A stretch of 64,000 nucleotides of DNA from Methylomonas sp. 11b. Lineage in GTDB: Bacteria > Pseudomonadota > Gammaproteobacteria > Methylococcales > Methylomonadaceae. Below are positions 5,548 to 50,889 of the stretch, piece by piece (positions within the stretch are counted from its first letter, which is position 1; every line of letters starts with the position of its first letter). Position numbers and translations under genes: made by a program. The stretch spans positions 2,413,741 through 2,477,740 of the forward strand of contig NZ_KI911557.1 in NCBI RefSeq assembly GCF_000515215.1, read 5' to 3'. The notes below the pieces were generated by a model, which was not told the origin of the DNA, did no database searches, and worked only from the letters and a program-made list of their open reading frames with translations.

Positions 5548-6930
5548 TTAACCAACCATTTCCAACGTTCTCGACAACCCCACAACCTCCGCCTTTTTCA
5601 AGGACTTACTCAGCAACATGTAGGTATCCCGATCAAAAGCCGGGCGCCCGCTCTGCAATATCGCCACTATCTCCCCCTCGTTTTTGGCCGAGCCCAAATA
5701 ACACCAGCGGTCGATGATGTGCAGTTCCCCTGCCTCGCGCACGCCGATCGCGCCCGGATACGGCCAAACGGTGAGTTTGAGTTTTTGCATGGCGATCAAC
5801 AGCCGTGCCGCGTGCGCCAAAGGCGCTTCCAAACCGACGCAGGCGCCGCGGCATTTTTTGATCTGGTGGCCAAAGCAAGGCCGGCCGACGGCGGTTTTTT
5901 CCAGGCCCAATACGCTCAGGCACAGGCCGTGCTGCTCGGCGACGCTGCGCAAGGCTTTTTGCGCATCGCGCTGGCTGTGATACAAACCGTATAAATTGTT
6001 CTGCGCCCCAAAATCCAGATTGTCTGCCCAGGTCAAAACCGGGCGTAAATGTTCGCCCTGCTGTTGCAATTGCCAGGCGCACAACGCGCTTTTCCGACGC
6101 AAGCGCTGGTTATGCACCGGCATCATTTGCTTGATCAGTTTGGACTCGGTGAGTAAAGCACCCAACTCGCCGGCGGTTTCGATCCAGTCGATGCGCCGCA
6201 GTTGCTGGGCCAAGCTCATTTCCTTGTTGTTTTTATGATCGGCGCCGAAATGCGCCAACACCCGGTTACGAATATTGACGCTTTTGCCAATGTACAACGG
6301 TAAGTCGTTCTCACCGTAAAACAAATAAACGCCCGGCGTTTCCGGCAAGTCGTGAATCAATAAGGGATCGATATTGGACGGCAAACTAGAACGACCCACC
6401 AAACGCTGCACGGCAGCATCGACGGTTTCGTCGGAAAATTGTTCGTAAGCTTGGGTCCAAAACTGATGAATCAATTGGGCGTCGGCCAAGGCCCGGTGCC
6501 GGTCTTTGGCCTGCAAACCATGCCGTTCGATCAGGCTATCCAGGTTATGCCGGTGAAAATGCGGATACAAAGCCCGCGACAGTTTGACGGTACACAACAC
6601 TTGGGGGCGGAAAGTCATGCCAACCCGGCTGAACTCGTTCTTCAAAAAGCCGTAATCGAAACGGGCGTTGTGGGCGATGAATAAGCGCCCTTCCAGCAAT
6701 TCCGCCACTTCACCGGCCACTTGCGCAAAGCTGGGGGCCTCGGCGACCATTTCGTTGCTGATGCCGGTCAATTGCTCGATAAACAGCGGAATGCGGGTTT
6801 GCGGATTTACTAATTGGTTCCACTCGCGCACGCCGTCCTCGTCAACCAAAACGATACCGATTTCGGTGATGCGGTCTTTGGTAGCTGAGGCGCCGGTGGT
6901 TTCCAGGTCAACAAAAGCCAGGGCTTGCAT
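5548..6930 (-). CDS. DnaQ-like exonuclease fused to GIY-YIG nuclease
   Basis: A 460-residue, two-nuclease protein. Residues 1-175 are a DEDDh 3'-5' exonuclease like DNA polymerase III epsilon (FVDLETTGA at the start, HNARFDYGFL near 90, HRALADAQ near 150). Residues about 195-280 are a GIY-YIG domain like the UvrC N-terminus (PGVYLFYG...LYIGKSVNIRNR). The C-terminal part lacks the UvrC helix-hairpin-helix region. This architecture resembles Cho/UvrC-related repair proteins that incise damaged DNA and trim the ends. It starts 8 bases after the gcvP stop on the same strand, so it may be read from the gcvTP transcript. Confidence 0.88.
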   Translation of the reverse strand: MQALAFVDLETTGASATKDRITEIGIVLVDEDGVREWNQLVNPQTRIPLFIEQLTGISNEMVAEAPSFAQVAGEVAELLEGRLFIAHNARFDYGFLKNEFSRVGMTFRPQVLCTVKLSRALYPHFHRHNLDSLIERHGLQAKDRHRALADAQLIHQFWTQAYEQFSDETVDAAVQRLVGRSSLPSNIDPLLIHDLPETPGVYLFYGENDLPLYIGKSVNIRNRVLAHFGADHKNNKEMSLAQQLRRIDWIETAGELGALLTESKLIKQMMPVHNQRLRRKSALCAWQLQQQGEHLRPVLTWADNLDFGAQNNLYGLYHSQRDAQKALRSVAEQHGLCLSVLGLEKTAVGRPCFGHQIKKCRGACVGLEAPLAHAARLLIAMQKLKLTVWPYPGAIGVREAGELHIIDRWCYLGSAKNEGEIVAILQSGRPAFDRDTYMLLSKSLKKAEVVGLSRTLEMVG

Positions 6931-33644: not shown

Positions 33645-36600
33645 CTAGGTCTTTCCGACGTTTGCGCGCGGTAAATATAGAATTTCCGGCAACACCACTT
33701 CCCAACGCTCGCATCGCAGACTCTCAGAGTCCCCCGCTGTCTTATGCCTAACCGAAATCGCCGCAACCCGTACCTTGAGGATACTGCCTTTTGGCGGGGT
33801 AAAGGCCTGTGCCATCCGAGTCACAGCCACGCCATTTAAATCGGCTAATTCCCAACCGATTTGGCGGTCGCTTCTGGCCCGCAAAATCAATTCGCTACCC
33901 ACATCCAACGCGGCAATCCCCCGGTGAATCGGCTTGTCGGCAGCGAAATAGCCGGGCCAGGACAACACGACTTGCCCCAAACCGGCCAGCCATGTGCGTT
34001 GCTCTAATTGCTGAAAACCCGCTGTATATTGCGGTTGGGTTTTGACGCAAAGCATCTCGCAATCCTTGATAAAAGCGTGCTTTCCGCCCCGCTTGGCGCA
34101 CAAAGTCAGCGTTTTGCGGGCGCGCGTCATCGCCACATAAAACAGCCGCCGCTCTTCGTCGCTGGCTTGCTGCCAGCCGCCGCCATCCAGAATCAGGACA
34201 TGATCGAACTCCAAACCCTTGGCTCGATGCGCTGTCAATAACAGCAGCGGCGCATGCCGGCTATCGTTTTCCCCGGACTGGCTGCCGGAACCGAATTCGT
34301 AGAGTGCATCGACAAGGTTGCTGACCACCTGCTGGCAACCCGGCGCGGCGACCTCGGCGGCGATGATGAATTGCGCCAGCATGGCTAGATAAGGATGTTC
34401 GATCAGCTCATTCACATTTTGCCGATAGCGGCGTTTGAACCAGCGCGACAACGATCCCCAACGCAGCAACACCCTTGGTTTGCGGGCCGTTCGCCTTTGC
34501 TTATTCAACAGGGCCAGCAAACTATGGCCTTCCCTAGTGGCATGCAAATTCAGCAAATAATCGTCGCGCATCAGCCTTACCGGAATGCCTCGCAACCGAC
34601 ACAATTCTGCCAGCGGCTCCAGCGTGTCCCAATGTCTAGCAATCACCGCAAAGCGGCCCCAGTGGCTGGTTTCCCCCAAATTCGCCAGCCTGTTCAGCCG
34701 CACTAACTCGCCCAACGCTACCTCGACTTCGCCGTGCAGCAGCGCCGGGGTTTCCAGAATATGTACGCGGCCTTGAGTCAAACTATCCAGCTCGGCAAAC
34801 TCTCCGCCCTCCGCTGCCTCGCGGCGCGCGTAGTTAATTTGGATGGCCTGCTTAATTTTCATCCGCTCCCGCACCGGCGCAATTACCCGGTTCGCGCAAT
34901 AGATGATCTGTGCCGTGGAGCGGTAATTTTCGATTAGGTAGTAGGTTTTTGCCTGATAGTCCACGGCAAACTGTTTGATGAAACGCACATTCGCGCCGCC
35001 AAAAGCATAGATGTTTTGATCATCGTCACCCACCGCCAACAAGGACAATTTATCGTCCTCGCTATTGATGGCTCTACCGGCCAGCGCGCTGATTAGCTCG
35101 TAATGCTCGGCGTTGATGTCCTGATATTCGTCAACCAATAAATAACGCAAACCGGACAGCAAGCGGTCACGTTGGATGCCCGGCCCAAGTTCGTCGCCCT
35201 GCTCCGCTTGTTTTAACAGCGCGGTGGCGTTTTTGATCACCGCTGAAAAATCAACGCTCTCACCATGTTCGGCAGCCACCGCATAACTGGTGCCGGTCAA
35301 GCGCATTGCCAAACCGTGCAAGGTTTGCACGGTGACGCCGGCGGCATCGGCACCAATCAAAGCCCACAAGCGTTTGCGAATTTCAAGCGCCGCTGAACGG
35401 TTATAACTCAGCACCATGATGTCTTCCGGCAACACCATACATTCGCGCAGTAACCAGGCCACCCGATGCACAATCACCTTGGTCTTGCCGGAACCGGGGC
35501 CGGCCAGCACCAATTGGCTGCCTTCCGGCGGTGCGGCGACGATGGCTTGCTGCTCGGGACTTTGCAGATCGGTGAGGATGCGCCGATGCGCGGCTTCGGT
35601 GGTGGCCATTTCCAGAATATCCTGGCGGCCGGCAAAATAGCGGCGCACGAATTCGGGTCTGTCCATGGCAAAGTAATCGACGATAAACGCCATCGCCGCC
35701 TGAATCTTGCCCAGCGCCAGCCGGGCGTATTCCGCCATCACATGCACCTGGATGATCTTGTCCTTGTAATGCAAAGCCAGCTCGGCATAATCGGATTTTT
35801 TAAATTGCCGACGCCGGGCTTCGGCATTGAGTTGGATACTCATCGCCGCCCGAAATACTGCCTTGCCGCGCGCCAGATGCAACACCTCGTTGCTGTCCAA
35901 ATAGATTAGCGCTGCTGCCAAAGCCACCTGCCAATCGCGCACCTCCAGATCCTGCAAGGTCAGATCGGCTTGCAAAGCCGCTTCCAAATCGCCTTGTTTG
36001 CAGGTAACCAGCAGATTATTGCCTTGACGTTGCGCCAGAAAGAAATTCAGCAAGGCCTGAGCCAGCCGCATGCGTTTATGCCGAATCAGGTCGATGTCCT
36101 GCCAGCTGCGCAGCAATTTAAGATAGCGATTATCCTGACCGGCCGGACGCAACGCGAAAAAACCACGCTGGCTGCTACTGTCGCCAAAGGCTTCGGCAAA
36201 CGATTTCATCAAGCGAGTCAATTTGTCCGGCGTCAGTTCCACGCCGGCATCGCGGCGCAAGGTATCGCACAGCCGCCGCACATTCAAAATCTGCCACTGC
36301 TCCCTATCCGCATCCGGCGCCGCCTCGCGCAGACTGGCAATCAATGTATCTTCCAGCTTACGCAAGTCTGCCAGCCGTTCTGCCGTGTCGGGATCGCGGT
36401 AAAGGGTCACACCGATTTCGGTATCGTTGGACACCAGTTTAAAGCGGTCCAACTCGCGTAGCATGCTCTGCACTTCGTGAGAGTTGCGGCCGGTAGCCAG
36501 CATCAGGTCGTCGGTACTAATGCCTTCGTCGTCTTCGCTGTAAAACAACTGCGACAACAGCGCCATGTACGGCTCAATGTTCGTATTCGGCCCCAGCGTC

Positions 36601-38807
36601 TTCTGCAGCAAAACTTGGGCTTCTTCAAGACTAGCCACTTGCAAGCTACCAGGGAACACCCGCGTATGATTTTCCTCGCGCTCCAGCAAGCGCGCCTCTT
36701 CCAGCCAGGCCACGGCGATGCGGACTTTGGTGTCGGCATCGGCGGCGTCGGGATCGATGCCGTGCTTGTCCGGAATTTCCAGCAATATTTCGCCGCTAGT
36801 GACCACCACCGAACCTTCGCTGCGGTCTTTGCGCTCGATGCTGCGCAGCGCTTTTAAAATCGCGGAAATATCGTGTTGCGTCAGCTTGGAATTACGCAGC
36901 AAGCGAAACTGCACATCCAGGTCGGCATCGTCATACAGCAACACACAACGCGCAGGATCTTGATCACGACCGGCCCGACCCGCTTCCTGCAAATAGTTTT
37001 CCAGCGAGCCCGGCGTATCCAAATGAATCACCAAACGCACGTCGGCCTTATCCACGCCCATACCAAAGGCATTGGTGGCGGCGATCACCCGTAGTTCGCC
37101 AGCAATGAAGTCTTCCTGCACTTGGCGTTTTTGCTCGGGCTGCATGCCGCCGTGGAAATAACCGCAATCCAGGCCAGCCTGTTTCAAAAATTCCGCCATT
37201 TCCTCCACGGTCTTCTGCCGCGCGCAGAACACGATAGCCCCGCCCTCATCGCGCAAGCTTTGCTCCAGCAAGCGCAGCACTTCCGGGTATTTAGCTTGGG
37301 CGGGCACTGCATGCACTTCGTACAGCAGGTTTTCGCGGTTGACGCCGCCGGTCAAACACACAAGCGTAATCCCCAAGCGCTTGCGAAAATGCTCCACAAT
37401 GTCTTGCACCACGTCCGGCTTGGCGGTGGCGGTAAAGCAAAACACCGGCGACGGCTTGTCCTTTTGCCGGGTCTTGATAAAGCGCGACACGTATAAATAA
37501 TCAGGTCGGAAATCATGCCCCCATTTGGATAAACAATGCGCCTCGTCGAACACCCAGGCCCCGATTTCCCGATGTTGCAAAGCCTTGGCAAATGCGCGGC
37601 TGCGAAATTGTTCCGGCGCGACAAAGATCAAACCCAAATCGCCCAAGCGCAACTTATCCAGCATCACCTGCCGTTCCAGCGGATTCAGCAGACTGTTGAT
37701 GTAGCCGGCACAGGTGATGCCGCGCGCTTCCAGGTTATCGACCTGGTCCTTCATCAAGGATTGCAGCGGCGAGATAATCACCGTCAGGCTGCCGTTGCGA
37801 TAAAAACGCGCCAGCGCCGGCAATTGATAACACAAGGATTTGCCGCCACCAGTTGGCAGAATCGCCAGGGTCGGCGTGCCGGCAAAGCCGTGTTCGACGA
37901 TGACTTGCTGTAAGGACCGACCATCCTCGGTAGTCGGCATCGGCCGGAACTGGGTGATGCCAGGAAAATAACGAGGCAACAATTGCGACAGATCATGCTG
38001 CTCCCGACACCAGTCGCACTCGGCATCACCACAAGGCACATCGCGCAAGATCGCGATTAACTCCCGCGTTTTCGGGAAGGACAAACTCACCCAAGGCGGC
38101 AGCACGGAATTGCCACCCGCCACCCGCAGCCAGGCCAACACATAAGCCAAAGACTTATGCCAAGCAGGATCAGGCAAATAGTGATGAACGATTTTTTGCT
38201 GCCCGGCGCGGCACCCCTTACCCTCGGTAGCGCGTTGCCAGGCTGCTTGGGCATCAGGCAAGGAAGGCCGCAACGCGGCGCGCAAGCTGGCAAAAAAATT
38301 CGCCACGCCCTTACCGTTTTCCGGAGCCAATAAAAAATGCAGACACAGCGCTTCGTCAGGATGCTCGGCCACCCGCTGCCGCAAGGCCTCGGCCTGATCC
38401 AGAAACAGCTCGTAAGCCAGTTCCGCGTCCCGAACCGGATCGTTGCGAGTCGTGGTACAGAGTTTGTAGTCCTTCACCAAGCGGTGATAGGGATTTTGCG
38501 GAAAAGCCACCGGCGACAGTTCCAGCGTATCGACCAAGGGCAAACGATGCAGCGCCAAATCCGGATGCAATACCGATAGAGCAGGTTGATCGAAGGCAAT
38601 CACGTTATGCCCCAACACAAACGCCGCGCCTTCGCTGATCTGATCCAGCTTTTGCCGCAAGTCGGCAGCTTTACCTGATAAGCGCAAGCGGGCATCGGTG
38701 TCCGGGCGATACGCACCAATCTCCCGCAGCTTTAAGCTATCCTGCCTCGCGGTTTCTATGTCTATGCAAAGGCACTTGGCTCGAATTCTGTCGGGTGGTT
38801 GAGCCAT
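33645..38807 (-). CDS. Exonuclease-RecQ-UvrD fusion helicase
   Basis: A 1720-residue protein with three catalytic units. Residues about 10-170: DnaQ-like exonuclease core (CIDIETA with Asp16/Glu18, LGHNVIAFD near 66-73, RDAELAYELF near 126). Residues about 300-690: RecQ-type SF2 helicase (LPTGGGKSLCYQLPA near 317-331, FDEAHCLSKWGHDFRPDY near 425, QEAGRAGRD near 610), with a Cys cluster at about 259-267 just before. Residues about 1095-1600: SF1 UvrD-like helicase (LAGPGSGKTKV near 1100, VDEYQDINAEHY near 1229, GDDDQNIYAFGGAN near 1257, FYVAMTRARKTL near 1560). It should unwind and trim DNA in repair, recombination or defence; the exact role is unknown. Confidence 0.87.
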   Translation of the reverse strand: MAQPPDRIRAKCLCIDIETARQDSLKLREIGAYRPDTDARLRLSGKAADLRQKLDQISEGAAFVLGHNVIAFDQPALSVLHPDLALHRLPLVDTLELSPVAFPQNPYHRLVKDYKLCTTTRNDPVRDAELAYELFLDQAEALRQRVAEHPDEALCLHFLLAPENGKGVANFFASLRAALRPSLPDAQAAWQRATEGKGCRAGQQKIVHHYLPDPAWHKSLAYVLAWLRVAGGNSVLPPWVSLSFPKTRELIAILRDVPCGDAECDWCREQHDLSQLLPRYFPGITQFRPMPTTEDGRSLQQVIVEHGFAGTPTLAILPTGGGKSLCYQLPALARFYRNGSLTVIISPLQSLMKDQVDNLEARGITCAGYINSLLNPLERQVMLDKLRLGDLGLIFVAPEQFRSRAFAKALQHREIGAWVFDEAHCLSKWGHDFRPDYLYVSRFIKTRQKDKPSPVFCFTATAKPDVVQDIVEHFRKRLGITLVCLTGGVNRENLLYEVHAVPAQAKYPEVLRLLEQSLRDEGGAIVFCARQKTVEEMAEFLKQAGLDCGYFHGGMQPEQKRQVQEDFIAGELRVIAATNAFGMGVDKADVRLVIHLDTPGSLENYLQEAGRAGRDQDPARCVLLYDDADLDVQFRLLRNSKLTQHDISAILKALRSIERKDRSEGSVVVTSGEILLEIPDKHGIDPDAADADTKVRIAVAWLEEARLLEREENHTRVFPGSLQVASLEEAQVLLQKTLGPNTNIEPYMALLSQLFYSEDDEGISTDDLMLATGRNSHEVQSMLRELDRFKLVSNDTEIGVTLYRDPDTAERLADLRKLEDTLIASLREAAPDADREQWQILNVRRLCDTLRRDAGVELTPDKLTRLMKSFAEAFGDSSSQRGFFALRPAGQDNRYLKLLRSWQDIDLIRHKRMRLAQALLNFFLAQRQGNNLLVTCKQGDLEAALQADLTLQDLEVRDWQVALAAALIYLDSNEVLHLARGKAVFRAAMSIQLNAEARRRQFKKSDYAELALHYKDKIIQVHVMAEYARLALGKIQAAMAFIVDYFAMDRPEFVRRYFAGRQDILEMATTEAAHRRILTDLQSPEQQAIVAAPPEGSQLVLAGPGSGKTKVIVHRVAWLLRECMVLPEDIMVLSYNRSAALEIRKRLWALIGADAAGVTVQTLHGLAMRLTGTSYAVAAEHGESVDFSAVIKNATALLKQAEQGDELGPGIQRDRLLSGLRYLLVDEYQDINAEHYELISALAGRAINSEDDKLSLLAVGDDDQNIYAFGGANVRFIKQFAVDYQAKTYYLIENYRSTAQIIYCANRVIAPVRERMKIKQAIQINYARREAAEGGEFAELDSLTQGRVHILETPALLHGEVEVALGELVRLNRLANLGETSHWGRFAVIARHWDTLEPLAELCRLRGIPVRLMRDDYLLNLHATREGHSLLALLNKQRRTARKPRVLLRWGSLSRWFKRRYRQNVNELIEHPYLAMLAQFIIAAEVAAPGCQQVVSNLVDALYEFGSGSQSGENDSRHAPLLLLTAHRAKGLEFDHVLILDGGGWQQASDEERRLFYVAMTRARKTLTLCAKRGGKHAFIKDCEMLCVKTQPQYTAGFQQLEQRTWLAGLGQVVLSWPGYFAADKPIHRGIAALDVGSELILRARSDRQIGWELADLNGVAVTRMAQAFTPPKGSILKVRVAAISVRHKTAGDSESLRCERWEVVLPEILYLPRANVGKT

Positions 38808-41510: not shown

Positions 41511-44500
41511 TTAGCTCAAACTCCAAGCCTCACTGAGTACCTCGGCTTGCTTTAGACACAACTCAACCGCTTCGTCGGCTTTATCGGGTGGATACTTCCA
41601 GCGCCGCAAAGCCCTTCTGACCAGATTCCGCAATCGGGCCCGCACGCTATCGCGTTTGGCCCAATCGACCGTCGTGCTATTGCGTAATTGTTCGGTAATA
41701 TATTTCGCCAGTTCGCGTAGATTGTTATCACCCAACTCACGCACGGCCGATTCATTTTGAATCAAGGCCCGGTAAAAGGCTATTTCGTCTGGATTTAAAC
41801 CCAGTTTTTCCGCTTGCGCCCAATCCGCCTGCATGTCTTTGGCAATCGCAATCAGCTCTTCAATTACCTGAGCGGTTTCGATGGCGCGGTTGTGGTATTT
41901 GCGCAAAGACTCCAGAATGCGCTCAGAGTATTTTTTCTCGGATACTACATCGGTTTTCATCCGCGCGTTCACTTCATCGCGCAGCAAACGTTCCAGCAAA
42001 TCCACCGCCAGATTTTTTTCCTTCAGTTGGGCGACATCATCCATAAATTCTGGCGACAGCAAGCCAATATTGGGCTTGTCCAAACCCACCAAGCTAAAAA
42101 TATCATCAACGCCTTCGGCGACAATCGCGTTATCAATGATCTGCTTTAGCGCCGAGTTTTTCTCTTCATCACTTAAGCGTTTATCCACTGTGGTGTTTTT
42201 AGTTAACGAGGCTTTCACCGCGCTTAAAAAGGCAATTTCCATTTTAAGCGGGGCGACTTCATCCAGCGTGCTACATAAGCTATACGCTTTGACTAATAAG
42301 GTCATTACCTCGAAAAAACGCTTTTTACCGTCTAACTCACCATTACTGCCTTGCAAACTCAAAATATGATTCATCGCCCCCGGCAATAAATGCAAAGCCT
42401 GGGTGGCAAAGGCACTGTAATCAAAGCCCTGCATCATGCCATGCACAATATCCAGCTTTTCGAGTAGCAGTGCATAGGCCTCGTGCGTATCCAACGTGGG
42501 CGCGCCTTTGCCTTTGGAATCGGTGTAGGTTTTTAATGCTTGCTTTAACTCACTGGCAATGCCGATATAGTCCACCACCAAGCCACCGGGCTTGTCTTTA
42601 AACACCCGGTTCACCCGTGCAATGGCTTGCATCAGGTTGTGGCCTTTCATCGGCTTGTCGATGTACATGGTATGACAACACGGCGCATCAAAACCCGTCA
42701 GCCACATATCGCGCACAATCACCAATTGCAGCGGGTCGCTCGCGTCTTTAAAACGTTTTTCAAACAGCTTTTTGGTGGTTTTGCTGTAAATATGCGGCTG
42801 TAGCTTGGCATGATCAGAAGCCGAACCGGTCATGACAATTTTAATCGTGCCCTTGTTGGGGTCGGCATCGTGCCATTCGGGCTTAAGCGCCACAATGGCG
42901 TTATACAGCTCCACACAAATATCCCGGCTCATGCACACGATCATGGCTTTGCCTGGCATGCTGGCAATGCGGGTTGCAAAATGACTCACCAAATCCTTAG
43001 CCACCTGTTCCACACGCGGCGCACTGCCCACCAGCTTTTCCAAGGCCGCCCATTTAGATTTGGTATTTTCGCGGCTGGCGATGTCTTCTTCGTCTTCAAT
43101 GACTTCGTCCACTTCCGCATTCAAGGCTTCGATGTCTGCCGTGTTGATGTCCAGCTTGGCCAGGCGCGATTCATAATAAATCGGCACCGTCGCGCCATCA
43201 TCCACCGCGTCCTGAATATCGTAAATCGACACGTAATCGCCAAACACCGCGCGCGTATCTTTATCTTGCGCGGCAATCGGCGTGCCGGTAAAGCCAATAA
43301 AACTGGCGCTGGGCAAGGCATCGCGCAAATGCTTGGAATATCCAAAGGTATATTGGCCTTTGGCATTTAACTTGGCTTTATCGCCATACTGGCTGCGGTG
43401 TGCTTCATCGCTAATCACCACGATATTGTGGCGATTGCTTAATACCGGATGACTGGTTTCATCGGCCAGCAAGGCAAACTTTTGGATGGTGGTAAAAATA
43501 ATCCCACCCGCTTGGCGTGCGGCCAACATCTCGCGCAAATCATCACGGTCACCGGCCTGCACCGGGGTTTGTTTCAACGTTTCGACTGCCATGCTAAAGG
43601 TATTAAACAGCTGGCCGTCCAGATCGTTTCTATCGGTCACCACCACGATGGTGGGATTATTCATCTCCGGCTGCGCCAATAACTTACTGGCATAACACAC
43701 CATCGAAATCGACTTGCCCGAACCCTGGGTATGCCACACCACCCCCGCTTTCCCAGAACCCGGCACCACCCGTTGCGCGTAATCGGCGCGGGGTTCGGCA
43801 GCACGGTCGTCTATCTGTTGCGCAGCAATGACCGTGGCTTTTACCGCCTCGCGCACCGCATGAAACTGATGATAACCGGCAATCTTTTTAATCAGCTGGC
43901 CGTCGTCCTGCTCAAACAAAATAAAGTAATGCAGATAATCTAAAAACAATTCCGGCTGAAAAAAGCCCTTCACCAAGGTTTCCAAACGGTATTGAAACAA
44001 CGGCTTGTCGTCTTCACTCGCCAGAGTGCGCCACGGCAGAAACCGTTCTTTATTGGCCGTCAGCGAACCCACCCGCGCATGCAAACCATCACTCACCACC
44101 AGCGCTGCGTTAAAAATGAATAAATCGCTAATTTCATCTTTATACGTTTGCAACTGCTGATAAGCCGCCCAAATATCGGCATTTTGATCGACCGGATTTT
44201 TCAGCTCCAGCACCGCCAACGGCAAGCCATTCACAAATACCAGCACATCCGGGCGGCGATGGCCTTTGCTGCCGGCAATCGTGTATTGATTCACCACCAA
44301 AAACTGGTTATTGCTGACCGTGGCAAAATCCAGCAGCGCCACATAATCGGTTTTTTCTTCGCCATCGATTTTAAAATCAACCTTCACGCCCTCTAATAAC
44401 AGGCGATGAAACACATGGTTGCTTTTGATTAACACCGGCGATTCCGGTTTGGCGATTTGCTGGGAGACGCGTTCTAAAACATCAAAGGGGATATGCGGGT

Positions 44501-44669
44501 TGATTTTTTGGAGCTGGTTGAGCAAGCGTTCAAACAGTACCACTTGCCGGTAATCGACCCGTTCTGGATGCTCAGCATCGGGCGCAATGTCATAGCCATT
44601 CACATAGTGATAGCCAATGTCTGTAAACCAATCGAGGCAAAGCTGTTCCAGTTGGTCTTCCGTGATCAT
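41511..44669 (-). CDS. hsdR: Type I restriction enzyme, R subunit
   Basis: A 1052-residue HsdR of usual length. The N-terminal nuclease core has [13 protein letters not shown] and AVLELKNP (PD-(D/E)XK). The translocase has [11 protein letters not shown] (Walker A near residue 318), [11 protein letters not shown] (DEAD-like), FIGFTGTP and the LTGFDAP and QAIARVNR blocks of helicase domain 2. A helical C-terminal part anchors it to HsdM2S. It is the last gene of the cluster, about 360 bases downstream of the BECR-like gene. The gene appears intact, but the specificity subunit here is frameshifted. Confidence 0.95.
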
Positions 44670-45026
44670 TTGTAACCTACTTCGATTTGCGATGAAATAA
44701 AATAATCGTTAATTATCAGAACCCTATCCATAAAGCATGACTCCACTTGTATTTGCAACGAAATAACAGCTTTCATGGATGGGTAAATTTATAAAACCTT
44801 GTTTTACCTAGCCTTTAGTCCGTCCAATTGCTGGTCAAAGTACCGTCCAATTGCCGATTAAGGACAAAAAATAATCCTGCCATAGTTGGTTTTCTGCGAT
44901 CATAAAGAATCAAAGTGTTCGAAAGTTTTACTTGTAAATAATGGTACACATGCAATAATTGCTCCGCTTCATTCACCATGTGTGAACAGAACGTTCGGGC
45001 CCGATTCATGGCAACATGTGTCGGGT
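44670..45026. other. Intergenic region upstream of hsdR
   Basis: AT-rich, no gene recognised. It contains a pair of 12-bp direct repeats (44820-44831 and 44843-44854) and probably the hsdR promoter. Confidence 0.5.
44820..44854. repeat. Pair of 12-bp direct repeats
   Basis: CCGTCCAATTGC occurs twice, at 44820-44831 and 44843-44854, a 23-base period. Close repeats like this occur at ends of IS21-type elements or as protein binding sites; neither is proven here. Confidence 0.6.
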
Positions 45027-45506
45027 CTAGTTTTTTCTGGGCTTTGCATATTTAGCTCGATTCCTCTCTAACTGCTTTATTTTTCCACTTTTTGTCGCAA
45101 GATAAGATGTTTTAAGCAGCCAATAATCCCTACGTTCAGACAACACGACAACGTATTGCTCTGCCTCAATCCAAATCACAATCTCATTCTGGTTATCTCT
45201 TTTCTCCACCCACCAACTGATTTCTGAATTCTCAATACAATTTTCTATTACCCAACTGACCCAGCCTATCCGTTCACACCGCCGTAAGTCAGGCGTCCTT
45301 TCTTCCTCAACATCACCCTCTTGCACCATATGCTAAAAGCCAAAGTGTTTACCCTTGGTTTCAGGTGTGTAACGGGGGCGCACGGGTAAATTATTAAAAC
45401 GTAAATTGCTCTGAATGATCGTCTCAAAATATACAGAATAAACCCTATCTTCGTAAGCTTGCCAGTCTCCGCAAAAGAGAACCAAATCTGGCAAATCCAT
45501 TGCCAT
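45027..45506 (-). pseudogene. BECR-fold nuclease-like gene interrupted by one amber codon
   Basis: One frame from ATG 45506 to TAA 45027 with TAG at 45335-45333. The first part (57 codons) ends TPETKGKHFGF, the amber codon follows, and the frame resumes HMVQEGDVEEERTPDLRRCERIGWV without shift. The downstream part includes ERIGWVSWVIENC, WWVEKRDNQNEIVIWIEAE and YWLLKTSYL, which I recognise as the phage/plasmid-borne nuclease-like family of the barnase-EndoU-colicinE5-RelE (BECR) group, where this junction normally reads GFWH. So TGG (Trp) to TAG is the simplest lesion. The start overlaps the DUF3800 stop (TAATG), with GGAGG 7 bases before. It could also be expressed as two pieces (second start ATG 45329). 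Confidence 0.65.
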
Positions 45507-46204
45507 TAGCTTGCCTCCCACACAAAAACATTGAATTTCCTTTCGGATGGCAAGGTACTGTAAATCAAACTTTTACCAGAACGTTGTTTTATACGGTCGA
45601 TGACCGCCAGCTTGCCTGCATTAGTATTTAATCCGCGATGCACATAAGCCAATGCGCCAATAAACAGGTCGGTTAACTGCAACTGCGCCATTTCATACGA
45701 GCGAACATGTTGAATATTTTCAATCGCTTTACGATCAAAATCATAGTGGGCGTTATGTAATACTTTCTTCAAGTCATCAATTTTTTCACGCCCTAACGTA
45801 TCTTTAATATCCAAATAAATATGGTAGCAATTGCCGTTTTCTAAAATGTTGCGCAACACATAAAAAAACATTTTGTAATAAAACAGATTATGGTCTTGAG
45901 CAAACTCGCCATGTTTCAGTTTTGATTTATCGGGTACTACCAGGCCACGAAAATGCAGGTCGGGATGGCTAAAAAAGTAATCAACGATTTCGCAATAAAA
46001 AGCCTGCTTACCAAGAGATATTTTTGTCCACTTAATCTCAAAGTCTGCCTTTAAACCATGCTTAACCTGTATTGCCCGAATATCTCGTGCGATTTTTCCG
46101 CTGATAGCTTGCGGACACCACACTGCCCCTAAAACCATGACGGGGATATTATCGCCTTCTAAATGACAGGACTCGTCGCAATAGACATTAAATAGTTCAC
46201 TCAT
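45506..46204 (-). CDS. DUF3800 family protein
   Basis: A 232-residue soluble protein of the DUF3800 family: N-terminal FNVYCDESCH with the conserved Asp-Glu, a central HIYLDIKDTLG strand and a C-terminal QLQLTDLFIGAL helix. The acidic residues resemble an RNase H-like fold, so a nuclease role is often assumed, but no biochemistry is certain. It starts inside the hsdS stop region (4-base overlap, 46201-46204) and ends with TAATG overlap into the BECR-like gene, so hsdS, DUF3800 and the BECR-like gene form one translationally coupled unit inside the type I RM operon. Confidence 0.8.
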   Translation of the reverse strand: MSELFNVYCDESCHLEGDNIPVMVLGAVWCPQAISGKIARDIRAIQVKHGLKADFEIKWTKISLGKQAFYCEIVDYFFSHPDLHFRGLVVPDKSKLKHGEFAQDHNLFYYKMFFYVLRNILENGNCYHIYLDIKDTLGREKIDDLKKVLHNAHYDFDRKAIENIQHVRSYEMAQLQLTDLFIGALAYVHRGLNTNAGKLAVIDRIKQRSGKSLIYSTLPSERKFNVFVWEAS

Positions 46205-47618
46205 ATCGCCTCCTGTAAGGAGGGTGATTCTGGATTAACGGGGAGCTCACCTGAAAGTAGCTTCGGTAATAATGTATCTCTTAGCTCTTGCAACGAATAT
46301 ATTACATCTATGTTTATTGACATATTTCTTTGCAAGTCAGCAACAATATATTGAAACTTGTCCGAAACCACCTTACTTGGCGCTAATAACTTAATCTTTC
46401 GTAAGTTTGTGACAGGCATTGCAATGGAAGGCACACCAACTTGAGATTTGTGCGCTAATAATTCATGTTGCCCTACATCAGATTTAAAATAATAAATCAT
46501 GAATAATGGAGAAACAACTTCTCTATCTGGCCTTATGTAACATTGGCTTTGAGAAACAATATAGCGCTCATATTTTGACCCTTCAGGAATAATACTTACC
46601 TGACCTAATGTGCCGCGATGCGTAATTACAATATCTCCTCTATAAACATTAGATTTAATTAGTTTATCAGCGTGCTCATAAGTTAAAAACTTGTTATCTC
46701 CGTCCTCTAACATAGTGCCTTTAAGTTGTTGACCATTGATAATCGGGACACCTTCATCAACGAAAGTTTCTACCTTTATGTTTGACCCGAAAGGACCCAT
46801 TGCTATAGTTGAAGATAGTTTTTCTAGAGTTTTTACTTCCCACCCCTCCGGTATTTCCCCTAGCTCAGAATCCACCAAAGCATCGGGGAATAAGGCGGCG
46901 GTGGTTTTGAGTTGTTGCAGGGTTTGCGGGTCGAGTTGGGCGAGTTGTTCCGGGGTTTTGCCGCTGATGGCGCAGATGGCGGCTTGTTCGATTAGCTCAA
47001 CACTGGCGCCAGCTTGTTTGGCGGCCATTTTGGCTTTCACCGGCTCAAAATCGACAAACCAGCTTTTAAAAATAGCTTGGGCGATTTGTTCCAGGGTTTG
47101 GTTGGTTTGGCGGTTGAGTTCGATTTTGTCATCAATCGACCTTAATATCACTGCAATTTCCTTTTGTTCAGACAAGCTAGGTGCTTCAAAGGAGATTTTT
47201 TCAAATGAAGATTTTTTAAGAATTGGAGTTCGGGTACATGTCGCACCTAAATTGAATATTTCTTTTCTCTTGGAACTTAGAACATAGTAAAGAAAATAAA
47301 AATCTACTTTGTCTTCATCAGGAATAACTGTATTAATTTGCTGGTTAGTAGCAGCAAGTTTTTTGATAATAGCAGACTTTCCCATTTGCCAGCCAATGCA
47401 GGAAACAGCAATACCTTTATCGAATAAAATTCGACTTAATACTTTTTCACATTTATGGAAAGCGTTCTTTGTGTTTCAGTAATTTCTCTAAAATCACCCA
47501 TATCAGTTGGAGTAATAAACAACGTTTTACCATTAAAATATTTTTCGTCAGTTCCTGGTGGAGTTTTACCTGTAATTACTTTAGCAACATCAGAAATTTG
47601 GTACTTAGTCCATTTCAT
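46201..47618 (-). pseudogene. hsdS: Type I restriction enzyme specificity subunit, frameshifted
   Basis: The N-terminal part (ATG 47618, GGAAG 7 bases before) reads MKWTKYQISDVAKVITGKTP and reaches TAA at 47438-47436 after SINVKKY. In the next frame the sequence continues SRILFDKGIAVSCIGWQMGK and runs intact to 46201. One missing base (TATTAAGT where TATTTAAGT is expected) explains the break. The second part has the rest of target domain 1, the central conserved helices (NQTLEQIAQAIFKSWFVDFEP), target domain 2 and the final helix. A protein from ATG 47385 (394 residues) would lack about half of the first recognition domain. The region is AT-rich relative to hsdM and hsdR. Confidence 0.85.
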
Positions 47619-47681
47619 TTGCATACTTCCATTAAACAGCATAACCACCAGCTAAAATACATTACGGTTTGTTTCAACAAA

Positions 47682-49526
47682 TTAGACATCGTAACCTAAC
47701 CCAGCCAAATTCTTCTTAATCTCCGTTTCCAGCTTGTCACTCTGCTCAAACTGGCTTTTAAGCTGTGCGGTCAAGCGCGCCATTTTCTCGGCGAAGGCTT
47801 CGCCATCGTCCACAACATCCGCCGCGCCGACGTAACGGCCTGGGGTCAACACGTAATCGTGTTTTTGGATTTCGGCCAGGGTGGCGGATTTACAAAAAGC
47901 CGGAATGTCGGTGTAGGTTGGGGTGACGTTAGGAACCCCAACAGATTCGGCCACTTGGGCTTGTTGGGCATCGCGTTGCTCGGCAATTGCTCCCTGCATT
48001 GCTCTACCTCCTGAATCCATGCAGTCGTCAGCCCAACCTACGGTTTGCCAACAATGAAAGGTCTCGGTGACTTTGTTTAAATCGTCCTGCGTAAAGTCGC
48101 GCAATACACGGTCTTTCATGTAGCCCAGATTGCGGGCATCGATAAACAAAATTTTGCCTTTGCGATCCCGTAATGTCCTGCCGCTGGCGGACGTGCGTTG
48201 GCCTTTGTTTTTGGTTAAAAACCAGATGCAGGCGGGGATTTGGGTGTTGGTGAACAATTGGCCGGGCAAGGCGACCATACATTCCACCAAGTCGTTTTCA
48301 ATCAGCGCTTTGCGGATTTCGCCTTCGTTATTGGTGTTGGAGCTCATGGAGCCGTTGGCCAGCAACAAGCCCATGCTGCCATTGGGCGCAAGGTGATACA
48401 GCATGTGTTGCAACCAGGCAAAGTTGGCGTTGCCGCTGGGCGGTTTGCCGTATACCCAGCGCGGGTCGTCGTCACTGACACCGGTATCCCACTCGCGCAT
48501 GTTGAACGGCGGATTGGCCATGACAAAGTCGGCACGTAAATCGGGGTGCTGGTCGTTGGTGTAGGTATTGGCGGGTTCTTTGCCGAAGTTAAAATCAATA
48601 CCGCGAATCACCATGTTCATGGCGGCCAGCTGCCAGGTAGTGTGGTTGTATTCTTGTCCGTAAATGGAAACGTCGCCGATACGGCCTTGATGCTCGCGGA
48701 TAAAGTTTTCCGATTGCACAAAAAAGCCACCGCTGCCCATCGCCGGGTCGTAGACGCGGCCTTTGAAGGGTTCCAGCATTTGCACAATCAGACTGACGAT
48801 GGATTTGGGCGTGTAAAATTGGCCGCCTTTCTTGCCTTCGGCCAAGGCAAATTGGCCGAGAAAGTATTCGTAAACATGGCCGAGAATGTCTTTACTGCTG
48901 AGGCTGGCGTGTTTAAACGGGATGGTGGCGATTAAGTCGATGAGTTCGCCCAGTTTGGCGGGGTCGATTTGCAAGCTGGTGTAGCGTTTGTTGAGGATGC
49001 CTTTGAGTTTGGCGTTGTCGTGTTCGATGGCTTCCAGCGCGTGGTCGATTAACTGACCGACGGAGCTGATGCGGGTGCAAAGGCGTTTTTCGGTGTCATC
49101 TTCCGGCGCTTGGGTCAGTACGTCACCGGCTTTAGTCAGCCAAATAACGCTGTTAATGACGACTTTGTTCTGATTTTGCAAAAACTCCCAGCGCGCCACT
49201 TTCGGCACCCAAAATACATTGGTTTCGGCGTAGTAGTCGCGTTGTTCCAGTTCGGCGTTGATTTCAGCTTGGTAGTCGGCGCTGTCCTCGCCGCCAACGT
49301 CGGCGGGGTCTAGGTAGTATTCGTGGTCCGGATTTTTAAACTGGCAGGTGAGTTCTGCGCGGCGAATATCAAACGAGTCGCTGACGTATTTTAAAAAGAT
49401 TAAGCCGAGTACCGTGTGTTTGTATTGCGAGGCGTCCAGGGTGGAGCGCAGCTTGTCGGCGCTGGTCCAGAGTTTTTTATCGAGGTTGTTTAAAAACTGT
49501 TGTTCGTCATCATTGACCATGGGCAT
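47682..49526 (-). CDS. hsdM: Type I restriction enzyme, M subunit (N6-adenine methyltransferase)
   Basis: A 614-residue methyltransferase. The N-terminal helical domain (NNLDKKLWTSADKLRSTLD) is typical of HsdM; SAM binding is at GRVYDPAMGSGGFFV near residue 250 and the catalytic motif IV is NPPF (in FVMANPPFNM) near residue 338. It methylates the host target and forms M2S with HsdS. It is first in the RM operon (hsdM-hsdS-DUF3800-BECR-hsdR). The protein is longer than the common ~500 residues because of a C-terminal extension. Confidence 0.95.
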   Translation of the reverse strand: MPMVNDDEQQFLNNLDKKLWTSADKLRSTLDASQYKHTVLGLIFLKYVSDSFDIRRAELTCQFKNPDHEYYLDPADVGGEDSADYQAEINAELEQRDYYAETNVFWVPKVARWEFLQNQNKVVINSVIWLTKAGDVLTQAPEDDTEKRLCTRISSVGQLIDHALEAIEHDNAKLKGILNKRYTSLQIDPAKLGELIDLIATIPFKHASLSSKDILGHVYEYFLGQFALAEGKKGGQFYTPKSIVSLIVQMLEPFKGRVYDPAMGSGGFFVQSENFIREHQGRIGDVSIYGQEYNHTTWQLAAMNMVIRGIDFNFGKEPANTYTNDQHPDLRADFVMANPPFNMREWDTGVSDDDPRWVYGKPPSGNANFAWLQHMLYHLAPNGSMGLLLANGSMSSNTNNEGEIRKALIENDLVECMVALPGQLFTNTQIPACIWFLTKNKGQRTSASGRTLRDRKGKILFIDARNLGYMKDRVLRDFTQDDLNKVTETFHCWQTVGWADDCMDSGGRAMQGAIAEQRDAQQAQVAESVGVPNVTPTYTDIPAFCKSATLAEIQKHDYVLTPGRYVGAADVVDDGEAFAEKMARLTAQLKSQFEQSDKLETEIKKNLAGLGYDV

Positions 49527-49582
49527 TAGGCTTTTTAAATTGATTCTGGCGTCTAGCGGGATTTATCGGGGTTTGCCAATCA

Positions 49583-50041
49583 CTACAAATAAGGTTGGAC
49601 AAAACGTTTTACGGCATCCAACACATCAAGAAGGGAAGCTGTTAGATCAAGCGCCTTGTTGATGATTTCTGCTTTGAGTTCAGGATCATCAGGGTAATCG
49701 TGTGCAAAGGTGTTTCTGACTTCACGCAGCAGCAACCAATCATCTGCCGATGGAATCGCACCTATTTTTTCAAGGCGATTCAACTTGTCTATAAATGCTT
49801 TTAACTCACCCGGTTCTTTTGTCAGCTCCAACACCGCCGGGAACAGCTTAGCGCCCATTGCTTCCTGCAATTTCCCAAATCGCACGAAAAACTGATCCAA
49901 AACGGCAATCTCAGTATCGGTCAGACGACTTAAACCATGTTCGTCAAATGGGGCATGGCATTGCAGTTGACTTACAGCCCAACGCAACCTATCGGCATGA
50001 CGGTCACAGATTTTTAGGATCTCTTGTATGGCTGTAATCAT
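49583..50041 (-). CDS. HepT-like HEPN ribonuclease toxin
   Basis: A 152-residue all-helical protein with the HEPN catalytic motif RNTFAHDY near residue 122, i.e. RX4HXY, where Arg and His form the RNase site and the Tyr is the residue AMPylated by MntA in studied systems. Its start overlaps the antitoxin stop by 4 bases (50038-50041), the usual MntA-HepT coupling. It would act as a growth-arresting RNase if released from control. It sits between ssrA and the type I RM operon. Confidence 0.82.
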   Translation of the reverse strand: MITAIQEILKICDRHADRLRWAVSQLQCHAPFDEHGLSRLTDTEIAVLDQFFVRFGKLQEAMGAKLFPAVLELTKEPGELKAFIDKLNRLEKIGAIPSADDWLLLREVRNTFAHDYPDDPELKAEIINKALDLTASLLDVLDAVKRFVQPYL

Positions 50042-50346
50042 TGCAACTGAATCCCGGCCTGTTTAGCAATTTGATAAATAGGTAAGTCAACCGAGCCATT
50101 GGTCTTACGCAACACGACGTCGATTTTTTGATCCCCGAGCCTTTTGTGTAAATCACGTAGAAACTTCAATTTACTGTTGATTAAGTCCGCTGCCGATTGC
50201 GCTTGGACCTCAATATAAAGATCGATGTCGCCACCTTTTTCGTCATCCCGTACTCTTGAGCCGAACAACCAGACATGGGCATCTTCACCGAAGTTGCTTA
50301 AGTCACTTTCACGTATTGTTTGGGCTTGATATTGTGATAACCGCAT
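50038..50346 (-). CDS. MntA-like minimal nucleotidyltransferase antitoxin
   Basis: A 102-residue protein of the minimal nucleotidyltransferase family: WLFGSRVRDDEKGGDIDLYI near residue 30 carries the GS...DxD site that binds Mg-ATP. In characterised HEPN/MNT pairs this enzyme neutralises HepT by adding AMP to its conserved Tyr. It precedes and overlaps the HEPN gene. Promoter not resolved; the gene starts about 95 bases after the ssrA terminator in the same direction. Confidence 0.85.
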   Translation of the reverse strand: MRLSQYQAQTIRESDLSNFGEDAHVWLFGSRVRDDEKGGDIDLYIEVQAQSAADLINSKLKFLRDLHKRLGDQKIDVVLRKTNGSVDLPIYQIAKQAGIQLQ

Positions 50347-50508: not shown

Positions 50509-50889
50509 TGGTGGAGGCGGCGGGAATTGAACCCGCGTCCGCAAGCACTCCGCCACAAGCTCTACATGCTTATCCCGCGCTTTTAATTTAACTGTTGACT
50601 ACCCGTCGGGCCAAGAGGATCAACAGCGATTTCGATTGGATTTAGCGCTTCGGGCTCCGAACTAAGCCTTGGCGCGAGCTTATGTAATATGATCCCTGAG
50701 CGCCCCCCGAAAGAGACTCCAGACGCATAAGTACATCTGGTCAGAGAAGTGGTGCAGGTTTTAAGCTGCTAAGGCCACTGAGTAGTTTTCGTCGTTTGCG
50801 AATACTTGTTTTCAGTAGGTTTTACGAGCTGTACTGTGCTCGGCATGCACCTGAGGTTTTGCTACCCACGTCGAAGCCATGTCGCCCCC
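50509..50889 (-). ncRNA. ssrA: Transfer-messenger RNA (tmRNA)
   Basis: The minus strand starts GGGGGCGACATGGCTTCGAC, the highly conserved tmRNA 5' end, and finishes in a tRNA-like acceptor with TTCAATTCCCGCC and encoded CCA (50509). The tag frame (50799 down to 50761) reads ANDENYSVALAA then TAA, with GCA as resume codon. Total 381 nt, one piece. It rescues stalled ribosomes by trans-translation with SmpB and marks products for proteolysis. The T-arm/acceptor 3' end is a common integration site for genomic islands. Confidence 0.97.

Follow-up and report, generated by a model that had tools for sequence, protein, structure and literature searches.

A candidate defence pair homologous to phage P1 RlfA and RlfB in a cargo slot of a Methylomonas type I restriction operon

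In a 64,000-nucleotide stretch of the Methylomonas sp. 11b genome (contig NZ_KI911557.1, hereafter the window), a type I restriction-modification operon on the minus strand carries two extra genes between hsdS and hsdR, one encoding a DUF3800 protein and the other a small partner. Both match PDC-M04, a candidate two-gene defence pair in the PADLOC library (M04A 304 bits, M04B 178 bits), and both have homologues in phage P1, rlfA and rlfB. The original prediction, made from the DNA letters alone, knew of no described system with this gene set; the pair is in fact listed under both names. With moderate confidence, we read it as a mobile two-gene cassette in a cargo slot, encoding two putative ribonucleases (RNases) that would act as an accessory anti-phage effector.

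Open reading frames (ORFs) and Pfam matches confirmed the predicted minus-strand order and its coordinates: MntA, HepT-like HEPN, hsdM, hsdS, the DUF3800 gene, the small gene and hsdR. By gene content the restriction set is complete (Pfam), with hsdM (47682–49526; N6_Mtase 360 bits, HsdM_N 67 bits), hsdS (two ORFs from 46201 to about 47648, Methylase_S in both) and an open hsdR (41511–44669; HSDR_N, SWI2_SNF2 and T1RH-like_C; PADLOC REase_I 1154 bits). The DUF3800 gene, M04A (45506–46204; PF12686, 7.8e-13), shares four bases with hsdS (46201–46204), and its stop codon shares TAATG at 45504–45508 with the start of M04B (45027–45506), a one-base overlap; both junctions are real, as had been claimed. 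M04B has no Pfam match, and its PADLOC score was obtained with an X at an internal stop. No Rfam DUF3800 RNA motif reached the gathering score next to the DUF3800 gene.

The PADLOC match covers both genes, their order and their homology; the window differs in that its M04B and hsdS are broken, and the PADLOC model library gives neither function nor structure for the pair. The PDC families reportedly derive from a guilt-by-embedding screen, as mentioned in a later paper (PMC12988326, citing the Payne et al. 2024 preprint), such that genes embedded in defence operons, including the M04 pair as a candidate, are already catalogued. In one open-access library we found no paper that names PDC-M04, and looking there for rlfA and rlfB gave mainly papers on other subjects. 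The P1 relationship likewise extends to both proteins, their order and the single base that the two genes share. P1 RlfA is 65.6% identical to the window DUF3800 protein, and its P7 counterpart is named RapA. RlfB was compared not with the window M04B but with that of an intact relative, L011: a plasmid-borne copy in Escherichia coli, matching P1 rlfAB exactly at the DNA level, has a B product that shares 50.7% identity with L011 M04B. The P1 pair differs in its setting, as it lies behind repL and a C1 operator in a 14-kb stretch without hsd genes. Matches to P1 rlfAB occur in 121 of 5,426 E. coli genomes, and 123 of the 127 places are plasmids. In Table 2 of a P1 knockdown screen, plating was not lowered by knockdown of rlfA or rlfB (efficiencies of 1.3 and 0.88; PMC10695390), which is weak evidence because repL, an adjacent gene known to be essential, escaped detection in that screen. 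Published accounts describe the rlfAB region as variable among P1-like phage-plasmids (PMC9603915) and deleted in one of them (PMC6906374), which suits an optional function.

Structure prediction was more informative for the first protein than for the second. M04A adopts a predicted fold that is clearly RNase HII-like (RNase H superfamily), with a conserved acidic DE..D..D set (D10, E11, D132/D135 and D179) that may correspond to the RNase HII active-site residues. A sequence search of M04A against solved structures returned as its best match a designed protein (5e-6, 48 positions); neither this nor the weaker matches were accepted as relatives. The M04B model, built for the intact L011 relative (predicted local distance difference test score 94.4), weakly resembles the RNase toxins colicin D, RelE and HigB, and its sequence gave only chance-level matches to solved structures. 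The original description of two nuclease-like proteins is thus well matched by the predicted fold of M04A; for M04B, the model is only weakly RNase-toxin-like, and the label BECR-like is plausible.

To what extent does the pair recur? A pattern scan with one peptide across an 84,980-species genome collection gave 345 stretches, including 245 relatives of M04B; the best 80 of these relatives, a set leaning towards the query, supplied the genome loci. By record title these span Pseudomonadota, Chloroflexi, an Acidimicrobiaceae bacterium, Cyanobacteria, Nitrospirae, Spirochaetes, Bacteroidetes, an archaeon and others. M04A is present in 85 of 90 loci scanned, 83 of them scored as adjacent to M04B, and the two genes overlap by four bases in 57 of these 83; in L035 and L065 they overlap too, missed by a longest-ORF rule. 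After removal of two duplicate contigs, and using hsd profiles built from the window genes by iteration (which miss distant hsd types), hsdS is the next gene upstream of the pair, allowing a gap of at most 400 bases, in 38 of 88 loci, with 10 more at contig edges; hsdR is next downstream in 20 of 88. Where hsdS stands at the junction, it overlaps M04A by four bases in 29 of 38 loci, a count favoured by our choice, here and in the control cargo described below, of the start codon nearest the four-base position. The viral contigs L091 and L092 (IMG/VR) also bear the pair, L092 with hsdS directly upstream, and L121 (294–4389) has a variant order, hsdM, M04A, M04B, hsdS, in which the pair precedes hsdS. 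With the pair found in dozens of loci in conserved order and with conserved overlaps, we reject a random insertion peculiar to this Methylomonas genome.

A less biased sample gives a broader picture of the neighbourhood. Among 398 Pseudomonadota genomes, 26 had M04A matches, and 20 of these were fetched, leaving aside the window's own genome and five with at most 50 bits. Fourteen of the 20 score at least 135 bits with the M04A profile, and 13 of the 14 also have M04B; the remaining six are weaker DUF3800 genes at which M04B was not found. Six of the 14 loci have hsd genes no more than about 1 kb away, one lies by an Eco57I-type methylase, three stand behind a protein with an HEPN-like RNDIEH motif and four have nothing telling that was recognised, such that no hsd gene was recognised near 8 of the 14. 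Together with P1 and the P1-like plasmids, these loci partly bear out the case that the original prediction had said would count against it, namely the pair occurring elsewhere without hsd genes. The RNDIEH protein, of 334–345 residues, is conserved, lies directly upstream of the pair (L125 9053–10087, L126 1592–2629, L127 7060–8064) and has sub-threshold zinc-ribbon matches; this suggests a three-gene variant without hsd genes.

Comparison of distances indicates that the two genes co-vary more closely than M04A does with hsdM. The correlation is 0.83 between M04A and M04B (81 loci), 0.50 between M04A and hsdM (37 loci) and 0.99 between hsdM and hsdR (34 loci), these Mantel values and the Fisher values below being rough because the sequences are related. 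The pair is therefore a recurring, co-varying module. In L071 and L078, M04A is 81% identical, whereas hsdM (19%), hsdS (15%) and hsdR (16%) are not alike and the gene orders differ; in both, M04A overlaps the end of hsdS (by 23 and 4 bases). This contrast and the distance correlations together show that the cassette is exchanged among type I systems unrelated to one another and has repeatedly come to lie behind hsdS.

We then asked how far the overlap with hsdS is particular to this pair. Of 59 HsdR matches in the Pseudomonadota sample, 37 upstream regions were fetched, some of them short contig ends, and 30 showed hsdS; G591 and G385, where M04 lies beside hsdR, had been fetched earlier and stand outside the 37. 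Counting as cargo the plus-strand ORFs of at least 100 residues, which are not proven genes, 29 of these 30 operons of the window's HsdR family have at least one ORF between hsdS and hsdR, although in L148 the sole such ORF also matched the hsdR profile. The 49 cargo proteins include Fic (6), RhuM (5), Abi_C (3), TIR (2) and AAA proteins (among the families listed, 25 of 50), and an M04 ORF was found in none of the 37 regions. The hsdS–hsdR gap is thus a general cargo slot. In L158, at about 6153–6233 (G563:C1:543952–544032), a 27-residue M04A start (30.5 bits) lies between two other cargo ORFs and is probably what remains of a cassette that was lost. A four-base overlap joins hsdS to the first cargo ORF in 13 of 29 operons and to M04A in 29 of 38 loci (Fisher p 0.011), so that tight coupling is usual in the slot and only somewhat stronger for M04. 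Because other slot cargo overlaps hsdS too, the overlap alone is weak evidence for a joint function, and we reject it as proof of one. Of the original interpretation, the recurring module and the frequent position of hsdS as the next gene upstream are supported; the step from overlap to joint function is not, as other cargo commonly shares the overlap. Directly upstream of the pair, L011 (118–1601), L010 and L033 carry other cargo (SIR2-like, RhuM and KwaB-like, from Pfam counts and by eye); cassettes therefore stack in the slot.

The window alleles are damaged, a point absent from the original prediction. Its hsdS is frameshifted into ORFs in different frames (47436–47648 and 46201–47385), and M04B has an in-frame TAG at 45333–45335, a whole-genome search likewise counting one internal TAG; hsdM, hsdR, the DUF3800 gene and the MntA and HepT ORFs are open. 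Both extra genes are intact in L011, a same-family relative on the same contig as L002, whose M04A is 87% identical. The cassette is probably inactive in this Methylomonas strain. A second locus, L023 (8050–10490), has in-frame stops in hsdS and M04B and an open M04A. Across the loci with hsdS next upstream, M04B is damaged in two of the three with a broken hsdS (the window, L023 and L028, the last with a full-length M04B) and in 1 of 36 others (p 0.012), a tiny test picked post hoc on counts made by hand, in which L023 and L028 are metagenome-assembled genomes whose assembly errors can mimic breaks. Such co-occurring breaks would fit a toxin that becomes harmful once its restriction partner is gone.

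On the accessory-effector reading, the cassette, known as PDC-M04 or RlfA/RlfB, is parked between hsdS and hsdR, overlapping hsdS; RlfA-type proteins are predicted to be metal-dependent RNases with an RNase HII fold, and RlfB-type proteins to be small RNases whose BECR fold is like that of RelE and colicin D. The two would most probably work jointly, damaging RNA (possibly tRNA or mRNA) when a cell is infected and backing up the restriction enzyme, by analogy with the anticodon nuclease PrrC of a type IC operon. The data show the homology of the pair, its predicted folds and conservation, where it sits in the operon, its exchange among restriction systems that are not related, and the broken window alleles; that it has RNase activity, is toxic, acts against phage or is in any way controlled by the restriction complex is inferred. 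An abortive role of the pair, which the original prediction had proposed, is plausible as a putative one, and since the P1 copy has no hsd genes, these are not always needed.

Other accounts explain part of the same evidence. A toxin–antitoxin unit, in which M04B is an RNase toxin countered by M04A, an enzyme-type antitoxin, and the unit rides along in defence operons and phages, is a tentative alternative that we hold improbable overall: the A-then-B order with its common four-base overlap, the strong co-variation across many contexts, the weakly toxin-like M04B fold and the loss of M04B with M04A kept in the window all suit it, yet the conserved nuclease-like acidic set of M04A would be unusual for an antitoxin. 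The joint breaks bear on a strict restriction-guard toxin of the PrrC type, in which the HsdS-containing complex keeps M04B or the pair silent until a phage inhibits that complex, such that a strain without a working hsdS would be under selection to lose M04B as well. The window and L023, as well as the repeated placement behind hsdS in unrelated systems, favour such a toxin, but the cases number three, with L028 contrary; the P1 pair has no hsd genes; and L020, L070 and L085 have a fragmented hsdR together with a full-length M04B. We consider this account unlikely. A wider version, in which a two-RNase effector was recruited repeatedly behind hsdS as an antirestriction guard, freed when the HsdS-containing complex is blocked, and was turned by P1 against rival phages, seems to us similarly doubtful. 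Least probable is the role that the P1 annotation implies, in which RlfAB clears RNA from hybrids or aids lytic replication and the restriction-operon place is incidental: its position behind repL and the C1 operator, the RNase HII fold of M04A and a slot open to many unrelated genes agree with a helper, but the variability of rlfAB among phage-plasmids, its re-placement behind hsdS in unrelated restriction systems and, weakly, the unreduced plating after knockdown argue against one.

Further genes lie on the flank of the operon. Upstream of hsdM lie a HepT-like ORF (49583–50041, minus strand), assigned by its mntA neighbour and by an RNTFAH motif that we take to be the HEPN motif, with no match at the limits used in Pfam, PADLOC or NCBIfam, and, overlapping it by four bases, an mntA-like nucleotidyltransferase gene (50038–50346, minus strand; Pfam NTP_transf_2 31.2 bits, cut-off 21; NCBIfam MntA 22.5 bits against a cut-off of 60, and hence below it). 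The MntA-like gene belongs to a putative flanking toxin–antitoxin pair outside the M04 cassette. The island starts beside ssrA, the tmRNA gene that precedes mntA (50509–50889, minus strand; ARAGORN; Rfam RF00023, 206 bits) and a known integration site; the ssrA 3′ end has no second copy within the window, and an island bounded by such a repeat was rejected. A 1,720-residue ORF near the island (33645–38807) appears, by eye only, to be an exonuclease–RecQ–UvrD helicase fusion.

This analysis joins a PADLOC candidate still awaiting validation, two uncharacterised genes of P1, a classic laboratory phage, and an hsdS-side cargo slot of type I operons, a link that we did not find in print in one open-access library. 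It adds the tie to P1 RlfAB, assigns predicted folds, provides a control for the cargo slot and documents exchange among systems that are unrelated. P1 offers a ready laboratory system for the pair's role, and the predicted folds point to activities worth assaying. Among known systems, the cassette is possibly PrrC-like in its logic. PrrC is described as an RNase whose gene lies within a type I operon (EcoprrI, type IC) and which is released upon inhibition of restriction (PMC12707154, PMC3506569). The likeness is an RNase effector gene, here a predicted one, inside a type I operon; the difference is that PrrC is a single protein combining an ABC NTPase with an HEPN-type nuclease, whereas M04 is two proteins in which Pfam found no NTPase domain. 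With DUF3800 the only Pfam domain in the first gene and none in the second, we reject a PrrC or RloC homologue. Extra genes inside hsd operons are also described for Campylobacter, as rloA and rloB (PMC2928727); these, like RhuM, Fic and Abi_C, resemble the M04 pair as additional, sometimes overlapping genes within hsd operons, and differ from it in belonging to other protein families.
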